A program made the position numbers and the translations under genes. A stretch of DNA of 64,000 bases from Hylemonella gracilis (lineage in GTDB: Bacteria; Pseudomonadota; Gammaproteobacteria; Burkholderiales; Burkholderiaceae_C): contig NZ_CP031395.1 in the NCBI RefSeq assembly GCF_004328645.1, positions 1,637,501 through 1,701,500 on the forward strand, in the 5' to 3' direction. This document shows positions 7,731 to 32,355 of the stretch, one piece after another; the first letter of the stretch is position 1, and each line of letters opens with the position of its first letter. Below the pieces are notes generated by a model that made no database searches, had not been told where the DNA came from, and worked only from the letters and a program-made list of their open reading frames with translations.

Positions 7731-8086
7731 CCACGAACCGTCTCCGCAGGCGTGCGCAGGCAAAGAAGCGCGTGACGCTCCAGTTCGCCTCGCGCCCACT
7801 GGATGCGTGACCCGCCTCGCAACGCGGGCTGCTGCGCCGGCCTACTTGCCGGGTCCGGTACACGGTTCCATGCGCATCCTAGGGATATCACCAGGGCTCT
7901 CTGCGCATAAAAGTATCGATGACCTGCCGCAGGGTACTGGAGCCCCTGGAATTCCTCACCAGAATGGGCGCCCTGCGGTCGCGCGCATGACGCGCGGCAA
8001 GAGAGTGCCCGCAGCCCCGCATGCGTGGGGGGCGGAAGGTGCCGAGGGGCCGCAGCAACCGTTCCATACACCAGAAGGAGACAGAC
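7731..8086 (+). other. Intergenic region upstream of the mtl operon
   Basis: These 356 bases lack a supported gene and should contain the promoter and MtlR-binding sites of the polyol operon. I see an imperfect inverted repeat at 8015-8030 but no operator I can assign. AGAAGGAG at 8073-8080 is the ribosome-binding site of mtlE. Confidence 0.5.
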
Positions 8087-9394
8087 ATGCACCGTTTTCT
8101 CAAGACCGGCCTGGCCCTGGCCCTCGCGGCCGCGGGCTGCGCGCAGGCGGCCACCGAACTCGTGGTGGCCACCGTCAACAACGGCCACATGATCGAGATG
8201 CAGAAGCTCACGCCGGCCTTCGAGAAGGCGCATCCCGACATCAAGCTCAAGTGGGTGACCTTGGAGGAGGGCGTGCTGCGCCAGCGCGTGACCACCGACA
8301 TCGCCACCAAGGGGGGGCAGTTCGACGTGATGACCGTGGGCATCTACGAGGTGCCGATCTGGTCGAAGAAGGGCTGGCTGATGCCCATCAACACCGACGC
8401 GGCCTATGACGCCAACGACCTGCTGCCTGCCATCCGCGCGGGCCTCTCGCACGAGGGCAAGCTCTACGCCTCGCCCTTCTACGGCGAAAGCTCCATGCTG
8501 ATGTACCGCAAGGACCTGGCCGACAAGGCCGGGGTCAAGCTGCCCGAGCAACCGACCTGGGCTCAGGTGAAGGACTTCGCCGCCAAGGTGCACAACCCGG
8601 CCGGCGGTGTCTACGGCATCTGCCTGCGCGGCAAGCCGGGCTGGGGCGACAACATGGCCCTGCTGACCACCATGGTCAACACTTACGGCGGTCAGTGGTT
8701 CGACATGCAGTGGAAGCCGCAGATCGACACGACGCCCTGGAAGCAGGCCATCGGCTTCTATGTGGACCTGATGAAGGCCTACGGCCCGCCCGGTGCCGCG
8801 GCCAACAGCTTCAACGAGAACCTGGCGCTGTTCAACGAGGGCAAGTGCGCGGCCTGGGTGGACGCCACCATCGCCGCCTCCTTCATCAGCGACCCCAAGC
8901 AGTCCAAGGTGGCGGACAAGGTGGCCTTCGCGATGGCGCCAGTCGCCGTCACGCCCAAGGGTGCCAACTGGCTCTGGACCTGGAACCTGGCCATCCCCTC
9001 CAGCTCGAAGAAGGCCGAGGCGGCGCAGACCTTCGTGAAGTGGGCCACCTCCCGCGCCTACATCGAACTGGTCGCCAAGGAACATGGCTGGCACGCCGTG
9101 CCCACGGGCACCCGCCAGTCCACCTACACCAATGCCGAGTTCCAGAAGGTGGCCAAGTTCGCCGCCGCCGAGCGCAAGGCCATCGACAGCGCCAACCTGA
9201 ACGACAGCACCCTGCCCAAGTCGCCGTACGTGGGCGTGCAGTACGCGGCCATTCCCGAGTTCCAGGCCATCGGTCTGGCGGTGGGCCAGCAGATCAGCGC
9301 GGCGCTGTCGGGCAAGGTCACGGTGGAGCAGGCCCTCAAGACCTCGCAGACCCTGGCCGAGCGCGAGATGAAAAAGGGCGGCTACTACAAGTAA
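8087..9394 (+). CDS. mtlE: Mannitol/sorbitol ABC transporter, periplasmic substrate-binding protein
   Basis: This 435-residue family 1 solute-binding protein of the MtlE/SmoE type has a signal peptide (MHRFLKTGLALALAAAGCAQA), then a mature start near ATELVVATVNNGHM. Motifs typical of polyol binders are FDVMTVGIYEVPIW, YGESSMLMYRKDL and GGQWFDMQWKP. The ATG at 8087 has AGAAGGAG eight bases upstream. It is the first gene of a tight operon (mtlE-F-G-K-D-Z) and delivers mannitol, sorbitol or arabitol to MtlFG. A close paralogue lies at 27571-28908. Confidence 0.93.
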   Translation: MHRFLKTGLALALAAAGCAQAATELVVATVNNGHMIEMQKLTPAFEKAHPDIKLKWVTLEEGVLRQRVTTDIATKGGQFDVMTVGIYEVPIWSKKGWLMPINTDAAYDANDLLPAIRAGLSHEGKLYASPFYGESSMLMYRKDLADKAGVKLPEQPTWAQVKDFAAKVHNPAGGVYGICLRGKPGWGDNMALLTTMVNTYGGQWFDMQWKPQIDTTPWKQAIGFYVDLMKAYGPPGAAANSFNENLALFNEGKCAAWVDATIAASFISDPKQSKVADKVAFAMAPVAVTPKGANWLWTWNLAIPSSSKKAEAAQTFVKWATSRAYIELVAKEHGWHAVPTGTRQSTYTNAEFQKVAKFAAAERKAIDSANLNDSTLPKSPYVGVQYAAIPEFQAIGLAVGQQISAALSGKVTVEQALKTSQTLAEREMKKGGYYK

Positions 9395-9421
9395 GCCCCG
9401 ACCTCGCACGACCTCGCCGCC

Positions 9422-10279
9422 ATGACCCGCCTGCTGCCGCGCGCCTTGCTGGCGCCCGCCGTGGGAGCCTTGCTCCTGTGGATGCTGGTGCCCTTGCTGA
9501 TGACGGTGTATTTCTCCGTCGTCCGCTACAACCTGCTGCAGCCGGGTGACCATCCCTTCGTGGGGCTGGAGAACTTCACCTACTTCGTGACCGACCCGGA
9601 CTTCGGTCCGGCGGTCTGGAACACGCTGGTGTTCCTGGCCAGCGTGGTGCTGATCACCGTGGTGCTGGGCATGGGGTTGGCCCTGCTGGTGGACGCACCC
9701 TTCCCGGGGCGGGGCATTGTGCGGGTGCTGCTGATCTCGCCTTTCTTCGTCATGCCGGCGGTCAACGCCCTGCTGTGGAAGCACATGATGATGAACCCCA
9801 TCTACGGCGTGCTGGCGCAGCTGTCGCGCGGCCTCGGCCTGGAGCCGGTCGACTGGCTGACCCATGCGCCGCTGTTCTCGGTCATCGTCATGGTGGCCTG
9901 GCAGTGGCTGCCCTTTGCCTGCCTGATCTTCATCACCTCGCTGCAGTCGCTGGACCGCGAGCAGATGGAAGCGGCGCGCATGGACGGCGCCGGCCCCATC
10001 CAGCGCTTCTGGTACCTCACGCTGCCGCACCTGGCGCGTCCGGTGGCGGTGGTGGTGATGATCGAGATGATCTTCCTGCTGGCTGTGTTCGCTGAGATCG
10101 CCATCACCACGGCGGGTGGACCGGGCAACGAAAGCACCAACCTGACCTACCTGATCTTCAAGCAGTCGCTGCTCAGCTTCGACGTGGGCGTGGCCTCGGC
10201 CGGCGCGCTGTTCGCCGTGCTGCTGGCCAACATCGTCGCGATCTTCCTGATCCGCATGGTCGGCAAGAGTCTGGACTGA
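9422..10279 (+). CDS. mtlF: Mannitol/sorbitol ABC transporter permease MtlF
   Basis: This 285-residue inner-membrane permease of the MalF/UgpA type has about six membrane helices. The cytoplasmic EAA loop, contacted by the ATPase, reads EAARMDGAGPIQRFWYLTLP. It lies 27 bases after mtlE and 2 bases before mtlG, as expected for a co-transcribed transporter. Confidence 0.93.
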   Translation: MTRLLPRALLAPAVGALLLWMLVPLLMTVYFSVVRYNLLQPGDHPFVGLENFTYFVTDPDFGPAVWNTLVFLASVVLITVVLGMGLALLVDAPFPGRGIVRVLLISPFFVMPAVNALLWKHMMMNPIYGVLAQLSRGLGLEPVDWLTHAPLFSVIVMVAWQWLPFACLIFITSLQSLDREQMEAARMDGAGPIQRFWYLTLPHLARPVAVVVMIEMIFLLAVFAEIAITTAGGPGNESTNLTYLIFKQSLLSFDVGVASAGALFAVLLANIVAIFLIRMVGKSLD

Positions 10280-10281
10280 TC

Positions 10282-11100
10282 ATGGCGACCACCTTTTTCT
10301 TCTTTGCGCGTACCGTCCTGGCCTGGGGCGCGGCGCTGCTGCTGTTCTTCCCGCTGGGCTGGCTGTTCCTCACGGCCTTCAAGACGGAGCTGCAGGCCAT
10401 CGCGGTGCCGCCGCTGTTCCTGTTCGAGCCCACGCTGGACAACTTCGCCGAGGTGCAGCGCCGCAGCGACTACCTGCTGTACGCGCGCAACTCCCTGGTC
10501 ACCAGCGTGGGTTCCACGCTGATCGGCCTGGCCATCGCGGTGCCTGCCGCCTATTCGATGGCTTTCTTCCGCACCCGGCGCACGCGCGACATTCTGATGT
10601 GGATGCTCTCGACCAAGATGATGCCGGCCGTGGGCGCCTTGCTGCCGGTCTATGTGCTGGCGCAGACCGCTGGCCTGCTGGACACGCTGACCGTGCTCAC
10701 CGTGGTCTTCACGCTGTCCAACCTGCCCATCATGGTCTGGATGCTCTACAGCGCCTTCAAGGACATCCCGGGCGAGATTCTGGAAGCCGCGCGCATGGAC
10801 GGGGCCAGCCTTTGGGGCGAGTTCCGCCACGTGGTGCTGCCGCTGTCGCTGGGCGGCATCGCGTCCACCGGCTTGCTGTGCTTGGTGCTGAGCTGGAACG
10901 AGGCCTTCTGGGCGCTCAACCTCAGCAGCGCCAAGGCTGGCACGCTGGCCACACTGATCGCCTCCTACTCCAGTCCGGAAGGGCTGTTCTGGGCCAAGCT
11001 CTCCGCCGCCTCGCTGCTGGCCATCGCCCCCATCGTGGTCTTCGGCTGGTTCAGCCAGAAGCAGCTGGTGCAGGGCCTGACCTTTGGCGCCGTCAAATGA
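10282..11100 (+). CDS. mtlG: Mannitol/sorbitol ABC transporter permease MtlG
   Basis: This 272-residue second permease of the MalG/UgpE type has an N-terminal helix and five further membrane spans. Its EAA loop reads EAARMDGASLWGEFRHVVLP. It pairs with MtlF to form the channel. The stop overlaps an in-frame ATG of the ATPase gene (ATGA at 11097), but the ATPase more likely starts 24 bases downstream, where there is a ribosome-binding site. Confidence 0.93.
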   Translation: MATTFFFFARTVLAWGAALLLFFPLGWLFLTAFKTELQAIAVPPLFLFEPTLDNFAEVQRRSDYLLYARNSLVTSVGSTLIGLAIAVPAAYSMAFFRTRRTRDILMWMLSTKMMPAVGALLPVYVLAQTAGLLDTLTVLTVVFTLSNLPIMVWMLYSAFKDIPGEILEAARMDGASLWGEFRHVVLPLSLGGIASTGLLCLVLSWNEAFWALNLSSAKAGTLATLIASYSSPEGLFWAKLSAASLLAIAPIVVFGWFSQKQLVQGLTFGAVK

Positions 11101-11120
11101 AACCGGGCAAGGACGCTTCC

Positions 11121-12164
<1,044 letters not shown>

Positions 12165-12212
12165 GGCGATTGCTTTTTCTTCTATCTTCTTCCTTTTTCC
12201 GGAGACACGGAC

Positions 12213-13658
12213 GTGACTTCCCCGCAAGCCCCCCTCCGCACGGTGCTGCACCTGGGCCTGGGCTCCTTCCACCGCGCGCACCAGGCGGTGTACCTGCAGC
12301 AATTGATTGACCTGGGCGACACGCAGTGGTCCCTGGTCGGTGCCAATCTGCGGCCCGACATGGCCGAGACCCTGGACGCCCTGGCGCGTCAGGACGGCGC
12401 CTACACGCTGGAGACGATCTCGCCTGCGGGCGAGGTGCGCTACCAGCGCATCAGTGCCATCCGCGAGGTGATTCCCTACGTGCCCGGCATCGCGCCCGTG
12501 GTGGCGCGTGGCGCCGACGGGGCCACGCGCATCGTGTCCTTCACGGTGACCGAAGCCGGGTATTACCTGGACGAGGCCGACCACCTCGACGTCCAGGCGC
12601 CCGAGCTGGCCGAGGACCTGGCCCGTGCCCGGCGTGGCCAGGCGGGTCAGACCATCTACGGCGCCATCACCGCCATCCTGCGCGCGCGCCAGGCCAAGGG
12701 CGCGGGCGCGCTCACGCTGCTCAACTGCGACAACCTGCGCCACAACGGCGAGCGTTTTCGCGCCGGATTGCTGGCCTTCATCCGCCATGCCGGCCTGCCT
12801 GAACTGGCCGCCTGGGCCGAGACCCACACCAGCTGCCCCAACGCGATGGTGGACCGCATCACGCCGCGCCCGCCGGCGGAACTGCGTGCGCGTGTGCGCG
12901 CCGCCACGGGCTGGGACGACGCCGCACCCGTCACGGCCGAGAGCTTCATCCAGTGGGTGATCGAAGACCGCTTCATTGCCGGCCGCCCCGCCTGGGAGCG
13001 CGTGGGCGTGGAACTGGTGCCCTCGGTCGCGCCTTATGAGGAAGCCAAGATCCGCATCCTCAACGCCAGCCACAGCTGCATCGCCTGGGCCGGCACCCTG
13101 GCGGGCTTGCAGTTCATCCACGAGGGCACGCACACGCCCGCCATCCGCCAGATGGCCTGGGACTACGTGACGCAGGACGTGATCCCCTGCCTGTCGCGCC
13201 CCGGCCAGCCCAGCCCGGTGGACCTGCCCGCCTACCGCGATGTGGTGCTGGAGCGCTTCGGCAACCCCGCCATCCGCGACACCAACCAGCGCGTGGCGGC
13301 CGATGGTTTCGCCAAGATTCCCGGCTTCATCGCGCCCACCGTGCGCGAGCGCCTGGCCCAGGGCGCCAACATCGAGAGTGTGGCTCTGTTGCCTGCGCTC
13401 TTCCTGGCTTTCCTACGGCGCTGGCACGCGGGCGCCTTGCCCTACGCCTACCAGGACCAAGCCATGGACCCTGCCGTGGCCCACGCCCTCTGCGAGGCGA
13501 CCGACCCCGTGGCCGCGCTCTGCGCTGACCGCACGCTCTGGGGCGAGCTGGCAGGCGACGCACGGCTGGTCGACGCCGTGCGCCGCGCGAGCGCACGGGT
13601 CCATGACTTCGTGGCCGCCGCACAGGTGTCGACGGCCCGCACCGATCCGGCCCGCTGA
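12213..13658 (+). CDS. mtlD: Mannitol 2-dehydrogenase (polyol long-chain dehydrogenase)
   Basis: This 481-residue NAD-dependent enzyme oxidises D-mannitol to D-fructose (often also arabitol or sorbitol). The N-terminus has the family pattern HLGLGSFHRAHQAVYLQQL. The catalytic K-x5-N-x2-H signature is seen in KIRILNASH. Translation starts at GTG 12213, preceded by GGAG at 12201. It follows the ABC genes by 48 bases and precedes the fructokinase, matching the classical order of the Pseudomonas mtl operon. The mtlY xylulokinase of that operon is absent here, so arabitol may not be fully catabolised through this locus. Confidence 0.93.
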   Translation: MTSPQAPLRTVLHLGLGSFHRAHQAVYLQQLIDLGDTQWSLVGANLRPDMAETLDALARQDGAYTLETISPAGEVRYQRISAIREVIPYVPGIAPVVARGADGATRIVSFTVTEAGYYLDEADHLDVQAPELAEDLARARRGQAGQTIYGAITAILRARQAKGAGALTLLNCDNLRHNGERFRAGLLAFIRHAGLPELAAWAETHTSCPNAMVDRITPRPPAELRARVRAATGWDDAAPVTAESFIQWVIEDRFIAGRPAWERVGVELVPSVAPYEEAKIRILNASHSCIAWAGTLAGLQFIHEGTHTPAIRQMAWDYVTQDVIPCLSRPGQPSPVDLPAYRDVVLERFGNPAIRDTNQRVAADGFAKIPGFIAPTVRERLAQGANIESVALLPALFLAFLRRWHAGALPYAYQDQAMDPAVAHALCEATDPVAALCADRTLWGELAGDARLVDAVRRASARVHDFVAAAQVSTARTDPAR

Positions 13659-13673
13659 CCACCGGGAACTTCC

Positions 13674-14675
13674 ATGCGCATTGCCATCGTCGGCGAATCC
13701 CTGATCGACTTCACCGCCACGGGCCCGCTGGCCTTCCAGGGCCACGAAGGCGGCGGACCCAGCAACTGCGCCGTGGCCGCCGCGCGGCTGGGCCAGGCCA
13801 CGGGCTACATCTCCCAGCTTTCGCGCGATATGTTCGGCGAGCGTCTGTTTGCCTACCTGCAGACCAACGGGGTGGATCTGCGCTTCGTGCTGCGCAGCGA
13901 CGCACCGACCACGCTGGCCTTCGTCGAGCGCACGGCCACCAGCAACCATTACGCTTTCTACATGCAGGGCACGGCCGACACGCTGTGGGCGCCCGCGCAA
14001 CTGCCCGAGTTGCCGCAGAGTTGCCGCTTCCTGCAATTCGGTTCCATCGCCCTGCTGCAGGAGCCCGCGGCCAGCCGCATCGTGGACCTGGTGCGGGCCG
14101 AGCGCGGGCGACGCATTGTGGTGTTCGACCCGAACGCCCGGCCCACCCTGGTGCGCGACCCGCAAGACTTCCGTGCACGCTGCCAAGGCTGGCTGGCCCT
14201 GGCCGACCTGGTCAAGCTCAGCGACGAAGACCTGGCCTACATCCTGCCCGGCTTGTCCGCCGACGAGGCCGCAGCGGTCGTGCTCGCGCTGGGCCCGCGC
14301 GCCCTGGTGCTGACACACGGCGGGCAGGGCGCCACGCTCTACCGCGCGGGGCAGGCGCCCTTGTCCGTGTCCGCGCCCGTCGTGCAGGTGGTGGACACCA
14401 TTGCCGCAGGCGACACCTTCGGCGCGGCGCTGATGGTCGGGCTGCTGGAGCAGAGCGTGGAACGGGCAGGGCAACTGGCCCCAACCACCGCCGCCCGCAC
14501 AGGGGCGCAGGTCGTGCCGGCGAACCCGCCCGATGCCACGCCTGCCCTGGGCGACGCCGCCTGGCGCGCGGTCCTCGGCTTCGCGGCCATGGCCGCCGCG
14601 CTCAACTGCACGCGCGCGGGCGCCAGTCCGCCCACGCGCGCCGAGCTGGACGTGGCGCTGACCCGTCCGGAGTGA
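13674..14675 (+). CDS. mtlZ: Fructokinase (PfkB family)
   Basis: This 333-residue ribokinase-family sugar kinase has a substrate-binding GHEGGGPSNCAVAAARLG region near residue 24 and the catalytic DTIAAGDTFGAAL motif (anion hole and base aspartate) in the C-terminal half. It phosphorylates the fructose made by MtlD to fructose 6-phosphate, the substrate of the nearby Pgi. It starts 15 bases after mtlD with GGGAAC upstream of the ATG. A stretch of about 25 residues before the C-terminus (after VERAGQ) is longer than usual and rich in alanine and proline. Confidence 0.9.
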   Translation: MRIAIVGESLIDFTATGPLAFQGHEGGGPSNCAVAAARLGQATGYISQLSRDMFGERLFAYLQTNGVDLRFVLRSDAPTTLAFVERTATSNHYAFYMQGTADTLWAPAQLPELPQSCRFLQFGSIALLQEPAASRIVDLVRAERGRRIVVFDPNARPTLVRDPQDFRARCQGWLALADLVKLSDEDLAYILPGLSADEAAAVVLALGPRALVLTHGGQGATLYRAGQAPLSVSAPVVQVVDTIAAGDTFGAALMVGLLEQSVERAGQLAPTTAARTGAQVVPANPPDATPALGDAAWRAVLGFAAMAAALNCTRAGASPPTRAELDVALTRPE

Positions 14676-22928: not shown

Positions 22929-24258
22929 ACCCCCGCCCGGTCCTGAGCAGCAAGCCCTGGCCTGGTGGGCCTTGCAGTTCAGCCCCCGGGTCTGCATGCT
23001 GGAAGAGGCGGTGCTGCTGGAGGTGCAGGCCAGTCTGCGGCTGTACGGCGGTCGGCGCGCGCTGCTGCATCGCTTGCGCGCGGCCTTGCCCGAGGCAGAG
23101 GCTGCGGCCTTGGCCGTCGCCCCCACGGCCCTGGCCGCCTTGGCCCTGTTGCGCACCGTGCCGCAAGAAGAAGCCGCGCTCGACGCGCAGGCCGTTCCTG
23201 CGGTGATTCCGGCCGTGGCCTGCGCCACACGCCACCTGAGTTCCACGCTCGATGCCTTGCCGCTGCTGCACCTGAGTGCGGCGCGCGCGCATGCGCCCGT
23301 GCTCGCGCGCCTGGGATGCCGCACCCTGGGGCAACTGCGGGCCTTGCCGCGTGACGGTGTCTCGCGCCGTTTCGGCGCGGCCTTACTGGAGGCACTGGAC
23401 CGCGCCTACGGCCAGCGGCCCGAGGCGCAGGACTGGATCGCGCTGCCCGAGCGCTTCAGCGCCAGGCTGGAGTTCACGGGGCGCGTCGAGACAGCGGAAG
23501 GCCTGCTCTTCGGCGCGCGGCGCCTGCTGGGGCAACTGGTCGGCTGGCTGCAGGCGCGGCAGCGGGGCGTGCTGGCCTTCACCCTGCATTGGGAGCATGA
23601 CTTGGTGCGCCGGGGCGAATTGCGCAACGGCCAGCTGGACCTGCGCACCGGTGCCGCCACACGCGACACGCGCCACCTGGCCCGGCTGCTGGGCGAGCAC
23701 CTCGCGCGCATCCAGTTGCCCGCGCCGGTGCAGGCCATCCGCCTGGACGCCACCGAAACCGAAGCCTTCAAGGCCGACAACACCAGCCTGCTGCCCGGGG
23801 ACGTGAAGGACGGCGAGCCGCTGGCGCAGCTCATCGAACGATTGGCCGCGCGCCTGGGCCCGCACCGCGTGTTGCGTGGCCGTGTCTTGGCCGACCATCG
23901 GCCGCAGCACATGCAAGCCTGGTTCGCCGCGAGCGAGCCTGCGGCGAAAACAAAAACAGCGACGCCTGCGCTGCCGCCACACCTGCGCTTGCATCCCGCC
24001 TGGATCCTGCGCGAACCGCTGCGCCTGGACATGCAGGGTGACCGCCCGCTCTACCAGGGGCCGCTGCGCATGCTGGCCGGCCCCGAGCGACTGGAGACCG
24101 GTTGGTGGAGTTTCTCCGCCGCTGCTGAAGTGGAGGGCGAGGAACTGGCTTTGCGGGATTACTACGTTGCTCGCAGCCCGCAAGCGGGTCTGCTCTGGGT
24201 GTACCGGCGCCGCGGTGGAGGAGAGCTGGCCTGGTTTCTACAAGGGATTTATGGATAG
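22861..24258 (+). CDS. imuB: ImuB, inactive Y-family polymerase-like mutagenesis protein
   Basis: This 465-residue protein starts MLWCALRPR, the typical ImuB beginning. It continues with WALQFSPRVCMLEEAVLLEV and SLRLYGG, a degenerate Y-family palm, a helix-hairpin region (LARLGCRTLGQLRALPR) and a little-finger part. The catalytic acidic residues of true Y-family polymerases are not evident, in line with ImuB acting as a beta-clamp-binding adaptor for DnaE2. It overlaps the corrected end of imuA by 68 bases and the dnaE2 start by 8 bases. Confidence 0.88.
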   Translation: MLWCALRPRLTPGTAPSSPSPHEPPPGPEQQALAWWALQFSPRVCMLEEAVLLEVQASLRLYGGRRALLHRLRAALPEAEAAALAVAPTALAALALLRTVPQEEAALDAQAVPAVIPAVACATRHLSSTLDALPLLHLSAARAHAPVLARLGCRTLGQLRALPRDGVSRRFGAALLEALDRAYGQRPEAQDWIALPERFSARLEFTGRVETAEGLLFGARRLLGQLVGWLQARQRGVLAFTLHWEHDLVRRGELRNGQLDLRTGAATRDTRHLARLLGEHLARIQLPAPVQAIRLDATETEAFKADNTSLLPGDVKDGEPLAQLIERLAARLGPHRVLRGRVLADHRPQHMQAWFAASEPAAKTKTATPALPPHLRLHPAWILREPLRLDMQGDRPLYQGPLRMLAGPERLETGWWSFSAAAEVEGEELALRDYYVARSPQAGLLWVYRRRGGGELAWFLQGIYG

Positions 24259-27200
24259 CTCCGCCCGCAACCTCATGTCCATGGCCACGGCTGGTTCGAC
24301 GCTGCCCGCTTACGCTGAGCTGCATGCCTTGAGTAACTTCAGTTTTCAGCGTGGAGCCTCACAGCCGGAAGAGCTGGTGGCGCGCGCGCATGCGCTGGGC
24401 TACAGCGCGCTGGCGATCACGGACGAGTGCAGCATGGCTGGCGTGGTGCGCGCGCATGGCGAGGCCAAACGGTTGGGCCTGGGCCTGCTCATCGGCGCCG
24501 AGCTGCGGGTGGAGGTGCCCGATGCCCAAGCGGGTGAAGCACACTTCACGCTGGTGCTGCTGGCGCGCAGCCGCGCGGGGTATGGACAGTTGTGCGAGCT
24601 GATCACCCAGGCGCGCAACCATACGGTGACGCCGCGCGAGCGGGAGCGCGGCCTGCGCTACCGGCTGCACATGGAAAACTGGCCCCCTCCAACACTGGAC
24701 AGCCGCGATTTGCTGGCCTTGCTGGTGCCTCAACGCGACGGCCTGCAGCCCGATTCGCCCGACTTCGCGGCGCAGCTGGACAGGCAGCTGCAGTGGTTGC
24801 GCGCGAGGTTCATGCCACATGGCTGGCTGGCGGTGGAACTGCTGCAGAGTCTGGACGACGAGTTCTGGCTGCGCGAGTTGCAGGCCGCGGGGGCGCGCTG
24901 CGGCGTACCCCTGGTGGCAGCGGGCGGGGTGCACATGCACGTGCGCTCGCGCAAGCCGCTGCAGGACGTGATGACCGCCATCCGCCTGGGCCGGCCCGTG
25001 GCCGAGTGCGGCTTTGACCTGCAGCCCAATGCCGAGGCGCATCTGCGCTCGCGCCAGCGCCTGGCCGCGCTCTACCCGGCGGCGCTGCTGGCCGAGACGG
25101 TGCGCCTGGCCGGGCTCTGCCACTTCAGCCTGGACGAGCTGAAGTACGAGTACCCGCAAGAGGTGGTGCCCGAGGGCGAGACGCCGGCTTCTTACCTGCG
25201 CCGCGCCACGCTGGAAGGCGCGCAGACACGCTACCCGCAAGGCGTGCCGGTGGCGGTGCGGCGGCAGATCGAGCACGAGCTGGCGCTGATCAGCGAGCTG
25301 CGCTACGAGAAATACTTCCTCACGGTCTACGACATCGTGCGTTTCGCGCGTGACAAGAACATCCTGTGCCAGGGCCGGGGTTCCGCGGCCAACTCGGTGG
25401 TCTGCTACTGCCTGGGCGTGACCGAGGTAGACCCGGCGCGCACCAGCGTGCTGTTCGAGCGCTTCATCAGCAAGGAGCGCAACGAGCCGCCCGATATCGA
25501 CGTGGATTTCGAGCACCAGCGGCGCGAGGAGGTCATCCAGTACCTCTACGCCAAGTACGGCCGGGACCGTGCCGCGCTGACGGCCGCCGTGCACACCTAC
25601 CACGCGCGCGGGGCGATCCGCGACGTGGGCAAGGCCCTGGGCCTGGACGAGGACATGATCGACGCACTGGCCAAGGCCCATCAGTGGTGGGACGGGCGCG
25701 AGGTGAACCATGAGCGTCTGCGGGCGCTGGGGCTGGATGCGGACAGTCGACCGATCCGTCTGCTGCTCGAGCTCACACGACCGCTGCTTGGGTTTCCGCG
25801 CCACCTGTCGCAGCACAGCGGCGGTTTCGTGCTCACGGGCGACAAGCTCACGCGCACGGTGCCCGTGGTGCCCGCCGCCATGGAAGGGCGCACCACCATC
25901 GAGTGGGACAAGGACGACATCGACGCGCTGGGCCTGCTCAAGGTGGACGTGCTGGCCCTGGGCATGCTCAGCGCCATCCGCCGCACGCTGGATTTCGTGA
26001 GCCAGTGGCGTGGGCGGAAGTTTCGCTTGCAGGACATTCCGCCCGAAGACCCCGAGACCTACGACATGATCTGCCGCGCCGACGTGGTGGGCGTGTTCCA
26101 GATCGAGAGCCGCGCGCAGATGAGCATGCTGCCGCGCCTGCGGCCGCGCTGCTTCTACGACCTGGTGATCGAGGTCGCCATCGTGCGCCCCGGACCCATC
26201 CAGGGCGGCATGGTCCACCCCTTCCTGGAGCAGCGCGAGCGCCAGCGGCGCGGTGAGCCCCTGGCCCTGCCCAATGAAGCCTTGCGTCCGGCGCTGGCGC
26301 GTACCCTGGGCGTGCCCATCTTCCAGGAACAGGTGATGCAGATCGCCATCATCGCGGCAGGCTTCACGCCGGGCGAGGCGGATCAACTGCGCCGCGCCAT
26401 GGCCGCCTGGCGGCGCAAGGGCGGCGTGGACAAGTTCCAGCAGCGCCTGAGCGAGGGCATGACGGCGCGCGGTTACGAGCGCGAATTCGCCGAGGCCATC
26501 TTCCGGCAGATCGAGGGCTTTGGCGAATACGGCTTTCCGGAAAGTCACGCGGCCAGTTTCGCGCTGCTGGTCTACGCCAGCGCCTGGCTCAAGCACCACG
26601 AACCCGCGGCCTTCCTGGCCGGGCTGCTCAATTCCTTGCCCATGGGGTTCTATGGTCCGTCGCAACTGGTGCAGGACGCGCGGCGCCATGGCGTGACGGT
26701 TCGGCCCGTGGACGTGCTGCACAGCGATTGGCACTGCACGCTGGAGCCGCAGGACGAGGCCGGAATCGGCCATCGACCCGCCACCCAAGCGGCCGTGCGC
26801 CTGGGCTTGTGCCTGGTTGCAGGGTTGAAGAACGCAAGCGCGCGGCGCATCGCCGAGGCACGTGCCCAGGGGCCGTTTTTCAACACCGAAGACCTCGCCT
26901 TGCGTGCGGGGCTCGATGCGCTGGATCTCAATGCCCTGGCGAGCGCCGACGCGCTCATGGGCCTGTCGGGCCACCGGCGCCAGCAGGTCTGGGATGCCTC
27001 GGCCTTGCACGCCGCGCCGGCCTTGCTGCGCGGCGCGCCAGTGCACGAGCCGACGCTGACGCTGGAAGTCGCGCCGGAGGGCGAGGAGATCGTCTTCGAC
27101 TACGCAGCCACCGGCCTCACGCTGCGGCGGCATCCGTTGGCGCTGCTGCGCCCGCGCCTGTCTCGCCTGGGCTTGCAGACTGCACAGGCCTTGCTGGGCT

Positions 27201-27493
27201 GGCCGAGCGGACGGCCTGCGCGGGCTTGCGGACTGGTCATGGCCCGGCAGCAGCCGGGCACGGCCAAGGGCGTGGTCTTCGTGACGCTGGAAGACGAGAC
27301 CGGGAATGTGCAGGTCATCGTCTGGAAGGCCTTGCGCGACCAGCAGCGCGAGGTGTTGCTGTCCGCGCGCCTGCTGGTCGTGCACGGCACCTGGCAGCGC
27401 GAGGGCGCGGTGTGCCATCTGATCGCGAAGCACCTGGAGGACCGGACGCCCTGGCTGGGACGTCTGGCCACGCAGAGCCGGGATTTCCACTGA
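24251..27493 (+). CDS. dnaE2: Error-prone DNA polymerase DnaE2 (ImuC)
   Basis: This 1080-residue C-family polymerase is the catalytic member of the SOS mutasome. An N-terminal PHP domain (YAELHALSNFSFQRGAS, ALAITDECSMAGVVR) is followed by the polymerase core with GRGSAANSVVCYCLG and the catalytic aspartates in PDIDVDF (414-420). A C-terminal OB-fold region (VVFVTLEDETGNVQVIVW) ends the protein. The ATG at 24251 has AAGGG just upstream; ATGs at 24275 and 24281 are alternatives. As the third gene of the LexA-controlled cassette it should be damage-inducible. Confidence 0.95.
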   Translation: MDSSARNLMSMATAGSTLPAYAELHALSNFSFQRGASQPEELVARAHALGYSALAITDECSMAGVVRAHGEAKRLGLGLLIGAELRVEVPDAQAGEAHFTLVLLARSRAGYGQLCELITQARNHTVTPRERERGLRYRLHMENWPPPTLDSRDLLALLVPQRDGLQPDSPDFAAQLDRQLQWLRARFMPHGWLAVELLQSLDDEFWLRELQAAGARCGVPLVAAGGVHMHVRSRKPLQDVMTAIRLGRPVAECGFDLQPNAEAHLRSRQRLAALYPAALLAETVRLAGLCHFSLDELKYEYPQEVVPEGETPASYLRRATLEGAQTRYPQGVPVAVRRQIEHELALISELRYEKYFLTVYDIVRFARDKNILCQGRGSAANSVVCYCLGVTEVDPARTSVLFERFISKERNEPPDIDVDFEHQRREEVIQYLYAKYGRDRAALTAAVHTYHARGAIRDVGKALGLDEDMIDALAKAHQWWDGREVNHERLRALGLDADSRPIRLLLELTRPLLGFPRHLSQHSGGFVLTGDKLTRTVPVVPAAMEGRTTIEWDKDDIDALGLLKVDVLALGMLSAIRRTLDFVSQWRGRKFRLQDIPPEDPETYDMICRADVVGVFQIESRAQMSMLPRLRPRCFYDLVIEVAIVRPGPIQGGMVHPFLEQRERQRRGEPLALPNEALRPALARTLGVPIFQEQVMQIAIIAAGFTPGEADQLRRAMAAWRRKGGVDKFQQRLSEGMTARGYEREFAEAIFRQIEGFGEYGFPESHAASFALLVYASAWLKHHEPAAFLAGLLNSLPMGFYGPSQLVQDARRHGVTVRPVDVLHSDWHCTLEPQDEAGIGHRPATQAAVRLGLCLVAGLKNASARRIAEARAQGPFFNTEDLALRAGLDALDLNALASADALMGLSGHRRQQVWDASALHAAPALLRGAPVHEPTLTLEVAPEGEEIVFDYAATGLTLRRHPLALLRPRLSRLGLQTAQALLGWPSGRPARACGLVMARQQPGTAKGVVFVTLEDETGNVQVIVWKALRDQQREVLLSARLLVVHGTWQREGAVCHLIAKHLEDRTPWLGRLATQSRDFH

Positions 27494-27570: not shown

Positions 27571-28908
27571 TCAGGGGGGCGTCGCGCTCAGCATGCGCCG
27601 CTGCGCGGCACGCTGACTGAGGGCCAGCGCTTCGTCCACGCTCAGGTGGCCGGCCACCGCCTCCGCGATGCGCTGGCCCACTTCGTCTCCGATGGCCGCG
27701 AATTCCGGGATCGTGGCGAACTGCACCCCGAGGTAGGGGCTGGGCGGCAGCGTGGCGTTGCGCGGGTCGGCGCCGCGGATGGCGGCGAGCTCATGGCTGG
27801 CCCAGGGCGCGGCACGCTGGAAGCGCGGATTGGCGTAGGTTGAAACGCGCGTGCCCGAAGGCACCAGACCCCAGCCTCGCAGGGCCGCCACCTGCTCGAT
27901 GTAGGTGCGCGACGTGGCCCAGGCCACAAAGGTCTGGGCCGCTTCCGTGTGCGCCGCGTCGATGTCCGAGGGGATGGCCAAAGCCCAGGCCCAGAGCCAG
28001 CGCGCGCCCTTGGGGGTGGTCCCCACGGGGGCCGGGGCGAAGCCGACCTGTTGCGCATGGGGGTTTTGTCCGGGATCGGCCAGAAAACCTGCCGCCACGG
28101 TGGCGTCGACCCAGATGGCGCACCGCCCGGCGAGGAAGAGCGCCAGGTTCTCGTTGTAGCCGCGTTGAACCGCGTCGGGCGGGCCGTAGCGACGCAGCAG
28201 GTTCACATAGAGGCTGAGTGCCTCGTGCCAGGCCGGGGTCTGCAACTGCGGGCGCCATTGCATGTCGAACCATTGGGCACCATGGGTGTTCGCGATCGTG
28301 GTGAGCAAGGTGATGTTTTCGCCCCAACCGGCTTTCGCCCGCAGGCAGATGCCGTAGACCTTGTCCTTCGGGGCATGCAGCCGGGCCGCGAAATGGGCAA
28401 TGTCCGACCAGGTGGGTTGCGCGGGCATGGACAGCCCGGCGCGGGCGAACAGGTCCTTGCGATAGAACAGCATGGAGCTTTCGCCATAGATCGGCGCGCC
28501 GTAGAGCCGGCCCTGGTGCGACAGGCCTTCCCGGATGTTGGGCAGCAGATCCTGGGGCTCCATCTCTGGGGTGGTGTGGATCGGCGTCAACCAGCCCTGG
28601 CGCGCCCAGATCGGTACCTCGTACATGCCGACCGTCACGACATCGAACTGGCGACCCTGCGTCGCGATATCGCTGCTGACCGCCTTGCGCAGCTGGGCTT
28701 CGCTCAGGGTGATCCAGCGCAGCTTGATGTTCGGATGGGCACGCTCGAATTCGGGGCTCAGCGAAGCCATTTGCAGCATGTGCCCATTGTTGACCGTGGC
28801 GACGACCAGGGTGAGGGCGGCTGCGGGCAGTGACAGCGCCAGGCCGCCGAGCAGGGCGCCGAGACGGCTCAGACCAAAGATCCGGGGCGTGGCAACGTGC
28901 CGCGTCAT
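27571..28908 (-). CDS. Orphan polyol-type substrate-binding protein, paralogue of MtlE
   Basis: This 445-residue family 1 solute-binding protein has a signal peptide (LGALLGGLALSLPAAA). It shares long stretches with MtlE at 8087-9394: LVVATVNNGHM, FDVVTVGMYEVPIW, YGESSMLFYRKDL, VYGICLRAKAGWG and GAQWFDMQWRP. No permease or ATPase is adjacent. Its ATG overlaps the stop of the upstream c-di-GMP gene by four bases (ATGA at 28905-28908), so the two are translationally coupled. I infer a sensory rather than transport role, perhaps presenting a polyol signal to the receptor, but it could also feed the MtlFGK transporter. Confidence 0.88.
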   Translation of the reverse strand: MTRHVATPRIFGLSRLGALLGGLALSLPAAALTLVVATVNNGHMLQMASLSPEFERAHPNIKLRWITLSEAQLRKAVSSDIATQGRQFDVVTVGMYEVPIWARQGWLTPIHTTPEMEPQDLLPNIREGLSHQGRLYGAPIYGESSMLFYRKDLFARAGLSMPAQPTWSDIAHFAARLHAPKDKVYGICLRAKAGWGENITLLTTIANTHGAQWFDMQWRPQLQTPAWHEALSLYVNLLRRYGPPDAVQRGYNENLALFLAGRCAIWVDATVAAGFLADPGQNPHAQQVGFAPAPVGTTPKGARWLWAWALAIPSDIDAAHTEAAQTFVAWATSRTYIEQVAALRGWGLVPSGTRVSTYANPRFQRAAPWASHELAAIRGADPRNATLPPSPYLGVQFATIPEFAAIGDEVGQRIAEAVAGHLSVDEALALSQRAAQRRMLSATPP

Positions 28909-31900
28909 GTGCCTGTTTCCAGTGTCTGCTCCGCACTTTGGCGCCCCAGCGTCTGCAGGCTGGCCTCGAACGCTTCCACGGCTTGCGGTCGTCCGAAGAA
29001 ATAGCCTTGAAAGGCCTGGCATCCCTGTTCCACCAGGAAGCGGTGCTGGGCCTCGGTCTCCACGCCTTCGGCGATCACGTCCAGTCCGAGGCCCCGACCC
29101 ATGGCGATGATGGTCTGCGCCACCATGGCGTCGCGGTGGCTGGCCGGCAGGTCGTCCACGAAGGACTTGTCGATCTTGAGCTGCGTCAGCGGCAGCTTGG
29201 TCAGGTAGTTGAGCGAGGAGTTGCCGGTGCCGAAATCGTCCAGCGAAATCATGAAGCCGCAGGCTCTCAGGGCCTGAAGCTTGCTCATCGAGACGTCGAA
29301 CTCGTCGATGGCGGTGCTCTCCGTCACTTCCAGCTTGAGTTTTTCTGCCGGGATGCCCGCGCGCCGGATCTTGGTCATGATGTCGTCCACGAAGGTGGGC
29401 GACTTGAACTGTCGCGGGCTGATGTTGACTGCCACGGTCAGGTGGCTGGTCTCGGGCCGACCGGCCCACCGAGCCAGTTGATGGCAGGCGGTGGACAGCG
29501 CCCATTGGCCGATCGGCTCGATCAGGCCGGTTTCCTCGGCCAGGGGGATGAAGTCCGCAGGTGGCACGAGTCCGCGGCGCGGATGAACCCAACGCATCAG
29601 GGCTTCGGCGCCCACAGGGCGGCCCTGCGCGTCCACTTGCAATTGGTAATAAAGCACGAGCTGGCCCCGTTCGATGGCTTCGCGCAGCTCGTGTTCAAGA
29701 TCGCGGCGACGATCGATCTCGATCTGCATCGCCTCCTCGAAGAAGCGCACAGTGTTGCGTCCTTCCTTCTTGCACTTGTACATCGCCAGCTCAGCTTGGC
29801 GCAGCAGGGTGCCAGGATCTGACCGTTCGCTGGACGACAGAGTGATGCCCACCGAGGCGGTGCAGACGAGGCGATGCCCGGCCAGCGCCAGGGGTATTTC
29901 GACGGCGCAGCGCACGGCTTCGGCCAACGCTTGGGCGCGTTGGGCCGCTTCCTGTCGTTCCAGGCCGAGGTTCTTGGCGACGAGCACGAAGCTGTCACCG
30001 CTGAAGCGGCCAATGGTGTCGCCTTCACGTGCGATCTCGCTGATGCGCCGTGCCATCTCGATCAGCAACTGATCGCCAATCACATGGCCGAGCGAGTCGT
30101 TGATCTTCTGGAACAGATCGAGGTCGATCATCATCACGGCATCGAGGGCCTGTGGTTCCGCGCCTCGGTCGGGGACGTGGCCCATGCGGTCTTCGATCAG
30201 CAGCCGGTTGGGCAGACCCGTCAGGGGATCAAAGAGCCGCAGCCGCTCGGCCAGCGCGCGCGCGTCCCGTTCAGCGGTGATGTCTTGCAGATTGCCGATG
30301 TAGCGCAGGGTACGGCCTGCCGCATCCGTGACCTCCGTGATGGACAGGCGCACCGTGTAGAGATGGCCTTCGCGGTGCCGGTTCACGACTTCACCCTGCC
30401 AATGCCCGTCGCGCTTGAGGGCGGTCCAGAGCGCCTGATAGAAAGAGGGCTCGTGCAAGCCGGACTGCAGCAAGCGGGGTGTCTTGCCGATGGCGTCCTC
30501 GGCGCAATAGCCGCTGATCCGGGTGAAGGCGGAGTTCACGCGCTCGATCACGCCGTTGGCGTCGGCGATCATCATGCCGTCGTGGCTTTCAAAGGCCACC
30601 GAGGCGATCCTCAGTTCGTGCTCCGAGCGGTGGCGCTCGGTGATGTCACGCCCGATCGTCAGGATGCCCGCGGGCGCACCCTGTGCGTCGTGCACCAGCA
30701 CCTTGACCATCTCGATGTCGCGCGTGCCGCCATCCTGGGTCCTGAAGGTGGTGTCGTATTGCAGCGGCTTGCCGCCCTGCAGCACCTCTTGGTCATTGCC
30801 CTGGACGAAATGCACGAAGGCCTTGTCGGTCAGCAGATCCTGGTCGGTCTTGCCCAGCAACTGTTCGCGTTTGAGGTTCAGCAGGCCAAGGGCACCGGTG
30901 TTGCAATCCAGGTACACGCCTTCCGGGCTCTTGAGCATCATGGCGTCCGGGCTGCTTTCGATGATGGCGCGCAGCAAAGCCCGTTCCACGCGCAGTTCCT
31001 GGGCGGCGCCCTCCAGTTGCTGATGCTTGTGCTGAATCTCGGCGGTCCTGTGCTTGACGGAGCGCCGCAGCATGCGGATCCAGAGGCCGCCAGCCGCACC
31101 CAGGCCCAGCACCAGCAGCATGGCGATCATGGCGATGCGCAGGTAAGGACGGTACTGGAAAGGCTGGCTGAACCATCTGTCGTGCAGCTGCGCGCGCTCT
31201 TCGGCGGTGATCAGGCGCATGCCTCGCTCGACCAATTCGTACGTTGCGATGTCGCCTCGGTTGACCGCCCAATGGAACTGACCTTCGTACAACTGGAACG
31301 CTCGACCAAAGTTGAGTTGGTCGCGATGCAGGTACAGATAGTAGTTGGCTGGCTCGTCGTCCATGCAGAAGATCTTGATCTGGCCTGCCTTCGCCGCTGC
31401 CAGGATGCTCTGGTAGTTCGGATAGGCGGCCAGGTCAGAGACCCCCCGGCTTGTCAGCGCGTCCACGCAGGCGTCGCCGCGCTGCACGCCGATCGTGAAG
31501 CCGCTGAGGGAGGCAGCGTCGTGGATGCCCTGGATGGAGCTGTCCACGTAGATGCTGACCGGCAGCGTGGCGTAAGGCGAGGAGAAGTCATAGAGCTGTT
31601 CACGCACCGGTGTGCGGAATATCATGTCGATCACATCGGCTTCACGGTCGCGGATAGCGCGCTGCGCCTGCGACCATTCAATGGCTTGCAGGTCCACGCG
31701 GACCCCGGTCTTGCTTTCCCAGAGTCGCCAGAGATCGACGATGTAGCCTTCGGCCTGCCCGTCCGCGCGCAGGACGACATAAGGGGGGTAGTTGTTGTCG
31801 GTGACGACACGCAAGACTGGGTCCGCATGCGACGCCGAGGCCGCGATGGTCAGTAACACCCACGCCAATTGCCATCGCCATGCTGGCAAAGGCCTTGCGC

Positions 31901-31910
31901 ATGCAGTCAC
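28905..31910 (-). CDS. Membrane receptor with SBP_bac_3, two PAS, degenerate GGDEF and intact EAL domains
   Basis: This 1001-residue protein has a signal peptide (1-29), a periplasmic amino-acid-binding-protein-like domain (about 32-250), a membrane helix (256-278), a short coiled coil, two PAS domains (about 312-425 and 434-548), GGDEF (about 555-722) and EAL (about 735-985). The GGDEF active site reads SGDSF (637-641), so cyclase activity is unlikely. The EAL domain keeps EAL (769-771), N829, E861/E864, DD (891-892), K915 and EGVE (948-951), as in active c-di-GMP phosphodiesterases. Translation starts at GTG 31910 with AGGAGG four bases upstream. It is coupled to the MtlE-like binding protein. 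Confidence 0.92.
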   Translation of the reverse strand: MTACARPLPAWRWQLAWVLLTIAASASHADPVLRVVTDNNYPPYVVLRADGQAEGYIVDLWRLWESKTGVRVDLQAIEWSQAQRAIRDREADVIDMIFRTPVREQLYDFSSPYATLPVSIYVDSSIQGIHDAASLSGFTIGVQRGDACVDALTSRGVSDLAAYPNYQSILAAAKAGQIKIFCMDDEPANYYLYLHRDQLNFGRAFQLYEGQFHWAVNRGDIATYELVERGMRLITAEERAQLHDRWFSQPFQYRPYLRIAMIAMLLVLGLGAAGGLWIRMLRRSVKHRTAEIQHKHQQLEGAAQELRVERALLRAIIESSPDAMMLKSPEGVYLDCNTGALGLLNLKREQLLGKTDQDLLTDKAFVHFVQGNDQEVLQGGKPLQYDTTFRTQDGGTRDIEMVKVLVHDAQGAPAGILTIGRDITERHRSEHELRIASVAFESHDGMMIADANGVIERVNSAFTRISGYCAEDAIGKTPRLLQSGLHEPSFYQALWTALKRDGHWQGEVVNRHREGHLYTVRLSITEVTDAAGRTLRYIGNLQDITAERDARALAERLRLFDPLTGLPNRLLIEDRMGHVPDRGAEPQALDAVMMIDLDLFQKINDSLGHVIGDQLLIEMARRISEIAREGDTIGRFSGDSFVLVAKNLGLERQEAAQRAQALAEAVRCAVEIPLALAGHRLVCTASVGITLSSSERSDPGTLLRQAELAMYKCKKEGRNTVRFFEEAMQIEIDRRRDLEHELREAIERGQLVLYYQLQVDAQGRPVGAEALMRWVHPRRGLVPPADFIPLAEETGLIEPIGQWALSTACHQLARWAGRPETSHLTVAVNISPRQFKSPTFVDDIMTKIRRAGIPAEKLKLEVTESTAIDEFDVSMSKLQALRACGFMISLDDFGTGNSSLNYLTKLPLTQLKIDKSFVDDLPASHRDAMVAQTIIAMGRGLGLDVIAEGVETEAQHRFLVEQGCQAFQGYFFGRPQAVEAFEASLQTLGRQSAEQTLETGT

Positions 31911-32355
31911 GATGCCTCCTACCCTGGATGATTCGAGAAGCCATTCCGCAGGATCAGCGCGCCTACCAGTCGGCGGTCGGACCAGCGTGCAGGCAACATA
32001 TCAAATCACAGCTTTGCGCCGCAAGGCCCTGCCGGTCATCAAACAGCGCATTCATTTCGGCCCAAAAGCGGAAGTTTTTGGGGGATGAGGTCGATTGGTA
32101 AGGAGCCTTGGCGTGGTGATGGAGGGCCGTGCCAGCGACGCAGCAAAGGCCCGTGACGCCGCAGACAGAGGGACCGACTTGAACTGCTGCGGCGTCTGGC
32201 TTAGGACAAGGTGCCTTCAGATGGTTTGGAAAACTGGGCGATAGTCGGGAATACCCCGTCCATGCAGTCCACCTCTCCTGTCGTTATCCTGACATAGTTA
32301 GGGGAGAATATCCGACTGGTTTGACTGCTAAAGCCGAATCCGGCTAGGGAAAAGC
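31911..32355. other. Intergenic region between divergent genes
   Basis: These 445 bases hold the leader of the leftward EAL receptor (AGGAGG at 31915-31920) and the promoter of the rightward PAP2 gene. I find no convincing ORF, repeat or structured RNA. Confidence 0.5.

Follow-up and report, generated by a model that had tools for sequence, protein, structure and literature searches.

Within a stretch of 64,000 nucleotides of the Hylemonella gracilis genome (contig NZ_CP031395.1, positions 1,637,501 to 1,701,500), hereafter called the window, two overlapping genes encode a membrane receptor with the domains of a cyclic di-GMP (c-di-GMP) phosphodiesterase and, directly downstream, a substrate-binding protein (SBP) of the MtlE/sorbitol-binding family. 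This SBP–receptor pair is conserved, and we put at about 0.78 the probability that it forms, as its sequence suggests, a dedicated couple acting on c-di-GMP breakdown. A signalling unit of this kind had been put forward in an original prediction made from the letters of the window; we consider it the best reading because the pair is conserved, co-inherited, and not a transport operon, while the general scheme turns out to be already known from NspS-MbaA, ScrB-ScrC, and RmcA. The features of the locus, in window coordinates, are as follows:

28905..31910, minus strand: receptor gene, 1001 residues, with the order SBP_bac_3, transmembrane helix, PAS, PAS, degenerate GGDEF, EAL
31167..31814, minus strand: periplasmic SBP_bac_3 (Venus-flytrap) domain, receptor residues 33-248 (Pfam)
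31065..31151, minus strand: transmembrane helix, about residues 254-282, continuing into a long helix (hydropathy)
30627..30977, minus strand: first PAS domain, approximately residues 312-428 (Pfam)
30273..30581, minus strand: second PAS domain, approximately residues 444-546 (Pfam)
29754..30233, minus strand: GGDEF domain, residues 560-719, signature SGDSF (Pfam and alignment)
28986..29690, minus strand: EAL domain, residues 741-975 (Pfam and alignment)
28905..28908, minus strand: ATGA overlap of four bases between the receptor stop and the SBP start (ATG at 28908-28906)
27571..28908, minus strand: SBP_bac_1 gene, 445 residues, MtlE/sorbitol-binding family, without adjoining transporter genes (Pfam)
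28819..28908, minus strand: N-terminal part of the SBP, residues 1 to about 30, probably a signal peptide (judged by eye)
27985..27999, minus strand: W304-L-W306-A-W308 of the SBP, aligned with the tryptophan stretch of 4RYA
27958..27963, minus strand: two-residue insertion I316-D317 of the SBP (alignment)

Both genes lie where the original prediction had placed them, and their four-base ATGA overlap is confirmed in the sequence; the receptor frame opens with a GTG at 31910, preceded by AGGAGG at 31915-31920, and closes with a TGA at 28907-28905. The make-up proposed at the time for the receptor (SBP_bac_3, two PAS domains, and an intact EAL) is correct as far as it goes, the GGDEF domain with its SGDSF signature having been overlooked. 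No HAMP domain matches the receptor in Pfam at E 0.001, and a helix covers residues 255-309 in the predicted model of its periplasmic part. The SBP has no lipobox, because there is no cysteine within its first 45 residues. That no transporter genes stand beside the pair, another element of the prediction, is borne out by Pfam as well as by MtlF and MtlG searches. The SBP query used in Pfam and in several similarity searches carried one residue too many before the start codon, which leaves the results unaffected.

Conservation was assessed on 80 receptor loci from public genome contigs, namely the best 80 of 314 relatives retrieved with a profile of the periplasmic domain (eight rows). The co-occurrence search that had been proposed for the overlapping genes was positive: in 13 of these 80 loci, the same SBP (at least 547 bits to that of the window) is the next gene 3' of the receptor. 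This count is no measure of prevalence, because the loci were chosen by similarity. The 13 pair loci (in our own labelling, L046, L048, L049, L051-L057, L059, L063, and L064) all belong to the 19 closest (L046-L064), and their carriers are found in Hylemonella, Undibacterium, Methyloversatilis, Azoarcus, Thauera, Dechloromonas, Thiobacillus, and other metagenome-assembled genomes (MAGs); seven of the 13 genomes are MAGs, which may miss genes, and six are not titled as such. The nearest named relative is that of Hylemonella gracilis ATCC 19624, at 89% in the receptor periplasmic domain. A spacing of -4 is seen in the window and in seven others (L046, L048, L049, L051, L052, L055, and L056), hence in 8/14 pairs, an alternative SBP start at -1 being possible in L055 and L056; it is +21 to +28 in L054, L057, L063, and L064, and ambiguous in the last two (L053, with a TTG at -4 or an ATG at +62, the ATG being closer to what its relatives show; L059, with an ATG at -19). 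Beyond the pair, the next frames on the plus strand differ among genomes, as judged by eye. Chance neighbourhood was considered and is ruled out by the conserved adjacency.

Among the 61 more distant receptor loci (L065-L125), no SBP was found within the stretch examined, five of these receptors being cut by a contig end (L066, L072, L099, L104, and L108); one of the five, the L072 receptor, is close (69%) and may adjoin an SBP. The six best receptor relatives of the family sample (150 genomes) likewise have no SBP beside them within the stretch examined, two of them running off their contig; the surroundings of the SBP matches of that sample were viewed for nine loci (L034-L042) and some others. 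In the class sample (369 genomes), the receptor is detected at 1e-90 in one genome besides G000 (321 bits), the order and class samples having been scored on the best few candidates per genome.

The nearest relative of the SBP in its own genome is MtlE, encoded at 8111-9373 of the window (58% identity over 423 residues), and the SBP had been described from the outset as its paralogue. The kinship stands, with the correction that the SBP did not arise by recent copying of MtlE and belongs to a separate and older clade: a 42-row tree places the 14 pair SBPs on one side of a branch (support 100/99) and 27 MtlE-type rows on another (98/91), with an orphan SBP from genome G275 attached between them. 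Of these 27 rows, 26 have MtlF adjacent; the locus of the remaining one, L177, runs into a contig end. A recent duplication of the window mtlE was considered and is ruled out by this tree (100/99). An earlier tree of 32 rows, rooted with too distant an outgroup, gave 56/98 for the pair group, a weak bootstrap support; it omitted L147, L148, and L150 as repeats of L036, L040, and L034, and 16 later loci are in no tree. The insertion at 316-317 follows the same division, with letters in 14/14 pair SBPs and a gap in 27/27 MtlE-type rows.

Co-inheritance is visible in the FastTree trees of the SBP and the receptor, which have 11/11 splits in common for the 14 pairs, and in the distances of the two proteins, which correlate at 0.93. 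The receptor tree counts 23 rows, 31 of the 53 loci L046-L098 having been dropped (best local alignment below 850 residues) and L099-L125 left out. The SBP was probably lost repeatedly, because L050, L061, and L047, the latter bearing an SBP remnant, fall inside paired clades of this tree.

Elsewhere in the order, 29 SBPs in 27 genomes pass 1e-100, and the surroundings of all 29 were viewed: 25 stand beside MtlF, two are pairs, and two are neither. The first of these, from G275 (L136, 5866-7155, minus strand), is flanked by a TetR regulator and resistance-nodulation-division (RND) efflux genes, without transporter or receptor; the other, from G501 (L193, 5126-6409, minus strand), lacks the pair insertion, has no mtl gene in the approximately 5 kb downstream, and meets the contig end upstream. 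Outside the order, the class sample adds 11 SBPs, ten beside MtlF and one (L177) at a contig end. The SBP family thus recurs in the mtl operon and beside the receptor, with one or two orphans in addition.

The view that the pair is not a transport operon is supported by its genomic context. None of the 14 pairs has a match to MtlF or MtlG beside it, and the 13 other pair genomes, that of Hylemonella gracilis ATCC 19624 included, yielded no MtlF orthologue; the best match there reaches 98 bits and 29%, against 251-512 bits for the MtlF adjacent to MtlE in other genomes. Weak permease matches (62-98 bits) occur at 1e-10 in six of the 13, and none at this threshold in the remaining seven. In each of the 13, the pair SBP is the only family member detected at 1e-20; given these two results, a role of the SBP in supplying MtlFG is rejected for these genomes, while in the window genome it is conceivable. 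Only the window genome, among the 14, was found to have both the pair and an mtl operon. This polyol operon (8021-14672) comprises MtlE, two permeases, a frame read by eye as an ATPase, a mannitol dehydrogenase, and a PfkB kinase.

Relaxed permease-contact sites were also looked for in the SBP, and nothing firm emerged: 33 positions are conserved only in MtlE-type rows vs 85 only in pair rows, and the interface is unmapped. An earlier contrast with 16 closer rows had given 80 vs 50, which is biased because these 16 rows have higher identity.

On the output side, the receptor probably breaks down c-di-GMP, as indicated by its EAL domain, in which the EAL, N, ExTE, DD, K, EGVE, and Q motifs are intact in the window; we take these to be the EAL catalytic motifs. 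The EAL motif itself is intact in 12/14 pairs and reads ESL in L053 and EVL in L059, both of them MAG pairs; EVL is also the reading in L075, a distant solo receptor. The GGDEF signature is degenerate in 14/14 pairs, mostly as SGDSF, and intact in three outgroup rows. An RxxD is present in the GGDEF domain of the window, which we assume to be I-site-like. According to the excerpts available of the papers cited here and below, MbaA, which carries EVL, is classed as a phosphodiesterase, and SGDEF proteins can be active (PMC8079147, PMC9993111). Judging by its signature, the GGDEF domain of the pairs is likely devoid of cyclase activity; it may instead be regulatory, because RmcA, whose main activity is that of a phosphodiesterase, is GTP-dependent (PMC8846402, PMC9028604).

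Ligand sites can be proposed on both proteins. By sequence, the closest structure to the SBP is the sorbitol SBP 4RYA (477 bits), described as a D-mannitol-binding protein in which Trp298 and Trp300 form a clamp (PMC12718374). W304, W306, and W308 are all present in 14/14 pair SBPs and align with the tryptophan stretch of 4RYA, for which we infer an offset between the numbering of the paper and that of the chain. The retained pocket residues would be the only tie to mannitol, one of the cues initially considered; in 13/13 other pair genomes, no orthologue of MtlF was found. A structural model of the SBP, with a mean predicted local distance difference test (pLDDT) of 58, was left unused.

In the receptor flytrap, R103, D184, C148, and C182 are identical in 23/23 receptor rows, including receptors without SBP. 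R103 and D184 align with a conserved Arg and a conserved Asp of arginine/glutamine-binding proteins, positions that presumably anchor the amino acid in these relatives. The receptor probably also senses a ligand directly, because its flytrap keeps residues at the amino-acid-anchoring positions. C148 (31467-31469) and C182 (31365-31367), on the minus strand, could form a disulphide. Fold and profile matches of the flytrap are to arginine/glutamine-binding proteins; the periplasmic domain of RmcA (7ejg) is one of 32 matches at 1e-10 in the profile search, with 48 bits vs 111 for the best, and comes at rank 33 among many such fold matches of the model, which are taken as support only (pLDDT 70.5, predicted template modelling score 0.50).

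We would picture the couple as working in the following way. The SBP would be exported to the periplasm, where it may bind a small linear polyol-like compound; loaded or empty, it would dock on the Venus-flytrap domain of the receptor, and the signal would travel through the transmembrane helix and the long helix to the PAS-PAS part and the probably non-catalytic GGDEF domain; the presumed phosphodiesterase activity of the EAL domain would then be altered, with an effect on motility vs attachment. As to the sign of the effect, our guess leans slightly towards a loaded SBP that stimulates breakdown, by analogy with arginine and RmcA; NspS with norspermidine acts on MbaA in the direction opposite to stimulating breakdown (PMC8079147, PMC9993111). 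A more tentative extension, to which we would give clearly less than even odds, is a two-input gate, where the receptor flytrap would read an amino-acid-like compound and the docking polyol-type SBP a second one, both setting a single phosphodiesterase; in most carriers, this second cue would be a pure signal, such as an algal or plant polyol, and not a food taken up via that transporter family.

Several observations weigh against a dedicated couple and must be considered together. Five close receptors (L050, L058, L060, L061, and L062) have no SBP of the family, either adjacent or genome-wide at 1e-20, and L047 retains an SBP remnant only, its genome holding no family SBP at 1e-20 either; the receptor does not strictly need the SBP, because these five do without it and L047 has but the remnant. 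The pair is rare, being present in 2/399 sampled genomes of the order, and the receptor exceeds 600 bits in 2/26 genus genomes, those of the window and G150 (the SBP lies beside the receptor in G150). The agreement of the trees and the correlation of distances follow from any joint inheritance of neighbours. In addition, the flytrap of the five solo receptors is 63% like that of the pairs, vs 67% among pairs, with no clear lost docking surface. The search for such a surface singled out positions 83 and 84 only, which is unconvincing. The solo receptors, as well as the identity of R103 and D184 with or without an SBP, would suit a receptor that senses an amino acid alone, as RmcA does, next to which the SBP would be a co-expressed accessory outside signal reception, for instance a ligand scavenger. 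We regard this as unlikely, since a transporter-less SBP has no other obvious use, yet it stays beside the receptor, at -4 in 8/14 pairs, and it has the whole branching order of the receptor.

It is also conceivable, if very improbable, that the SBP is an orphan transport protein feeding a permease encoded elsewhere, for example MtlFG of the window. Its 58% identity to MtlE, the presence of the mtl operon some 14-20 kb away in the window genome, and the conserved tryptophan stretch would all be expected of such a protein, and a more distant permease is possible in the 6/13 pair genomes with matches of 62-98 bits; however, 13/13 other pair genomes, among them the six not titled MAG, show neither an MtlF orthologue nor another SBP of the family, and the 27 MtlE-type rows lie outside the SBP clade. 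We give equally little credence to an SBP that serves another periplasmic partner, such as a chemoreceptor, and has only its expression in common with the phosphodiesterase: SBP-driven receptors are an established mechanism, and SBPs do stimulate chemoreceptors (PMC9602780), but a partner of this sort leaves unexplained why the SBP is tied to one receptor in 14 genomes. The dedicated couple remains the reading that we favour.

Around the pair, the divergent gene upstream of the receptor encodes a PAP2 protein (Pfam), and a DNA polymerase III alpha type protein (PHP, pol3 alpha, finger, and OB), encoded at 23876-27493, is convergent with the SBP gene; it is perhaps DnaE2. Neither RNA families nor sigma-70-type promoters were found in the pair region, which has five terminator-like sites vs 2.7 expected. 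That a different SBP might stand in for the lost one was considered and rejected on a Pfam check of nine genes downstream of solo receptors, a set that excludes those of L050, L058, L060, L062, and most distant receptors: two encode kinases and two encode response regulators, one is a Peripla_BP_6 protein, three are other proteins, and one is unmatched. The Peripla_BP_6 protein (L070, 3761-4984, plus strand) starts 195 bases after a distant receptor and is possibly part of another SBP–receptor couple. Distant relatives of the receptor are overlapped by four bases by a response regulator with an EAL output in L098 (11143-12390, plus strand) and by one with a LuxR-type output in L110 (10092-10775, plus strand). 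Near mtl operons of two genomes, the GGDEF-EAL part of the receptor is weakly matched in L175 (4182-5189, plus strand; 56 bits) and in L191 (1393-2649, plus strand; 46 bits).

The SBP-driven c-di-GMP receptors that we met in the literature, as far as the available excerpts describe them, have polyamines or an autoinducer-like signal as their cue (NspS-MbaA, ScrB-ScrC). If the proposed couple is real, a sugar-alcohol-type SBP would be added to them; a transport protein family would have been turned to signalling where its transporter is not found; and a compact two-gene system from freshwater and soil bacteria would become available in which to study the integration of two cues by an SBP and a sensor flytrap.

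Compared with 4RYA and the MtlE-type SBPs of polyol ATP-binding cassette (ABC) transporters, the SBP of the pair belongs to the same family and keeps the tryptophan stretch, but it has no adjoining permease genes, falls in a separate clade, and carries the two-residue insertion. The receptor shares with BvgS (4q0c) a flytrap of the same type on a membrane sensor; BvgS, however, has two flytraps per chain, the second with a T at the position of D184, and its output is a kinase. ScrB-ScrC of Vibrio parahaemolyticus is similar in that a periplasmic binding protein switches a dual-function c-di-GMP enzyme encoded in one operon (PMC10269520); judged by that description, it differs by being a three-gene operon with the signal-making ScrA; of the genes flanking the pair, a divergent PAP2 gene and a DNA polymerase III alpha type gene on the other strand, neither seems a candidate third member.

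Of the periplasmic binding protein clan, SBP_bac_3 was the one family whose part in c-di-GMP networks had been studied, according to the available part of the review PMC8846402. RmcA (PA0575) of Pseudomonas aeruginosa has the same SBP_bac_3, PAS, GGDEF, EAL order (PMC8846402, PMC9028604), with four PAS domains (PMC8846402) vs two here; no partner SBP is named for it in these excerpts, and its periplasmic domain is distantly alike (8e-12 with the profile; 19% identity in the fold match). The closest parallel for the couple as a whole is NspS-MbaA of Vibrio cholerae and Sinorhizobium meliloti (PMC8079147, PMC9993111), in which the gene of a transporter-type SBP, PotD/PotF-like, overlaps the gene of a membrane receptor that has a periplasmic domain, a serine-substituted GGDEF (SGDEF in MbaA, SGDSF here), and an EAL-type domain. 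The two systems are set apart by their descriptions: NspS is a polyamine-type SBP whose gene lies upstream of mbaA, whereas the SBP here is MtlE-like and encoded downstream; MbaA has a putative HAMP and, in the excerpts at hand, no PAS is named for it, whereas our receptor has SBP_bac_3 and two PAS domains without HAMP. PotD is absent from the 40 Protein Data Bank matches of the SBP. In the open-access PMC literature, as far as its excerpts extend, the exact combination of an MtlE-type SBP with an EAL receptor was not found, as the original prediction had supposed; the principle of an SBP joined to a GGDEF-EAL receptor is known. Taken with these systems, the pair would act like NspS-MbaA, on an RmcA-like receptor, and it departs from the defining features of both.

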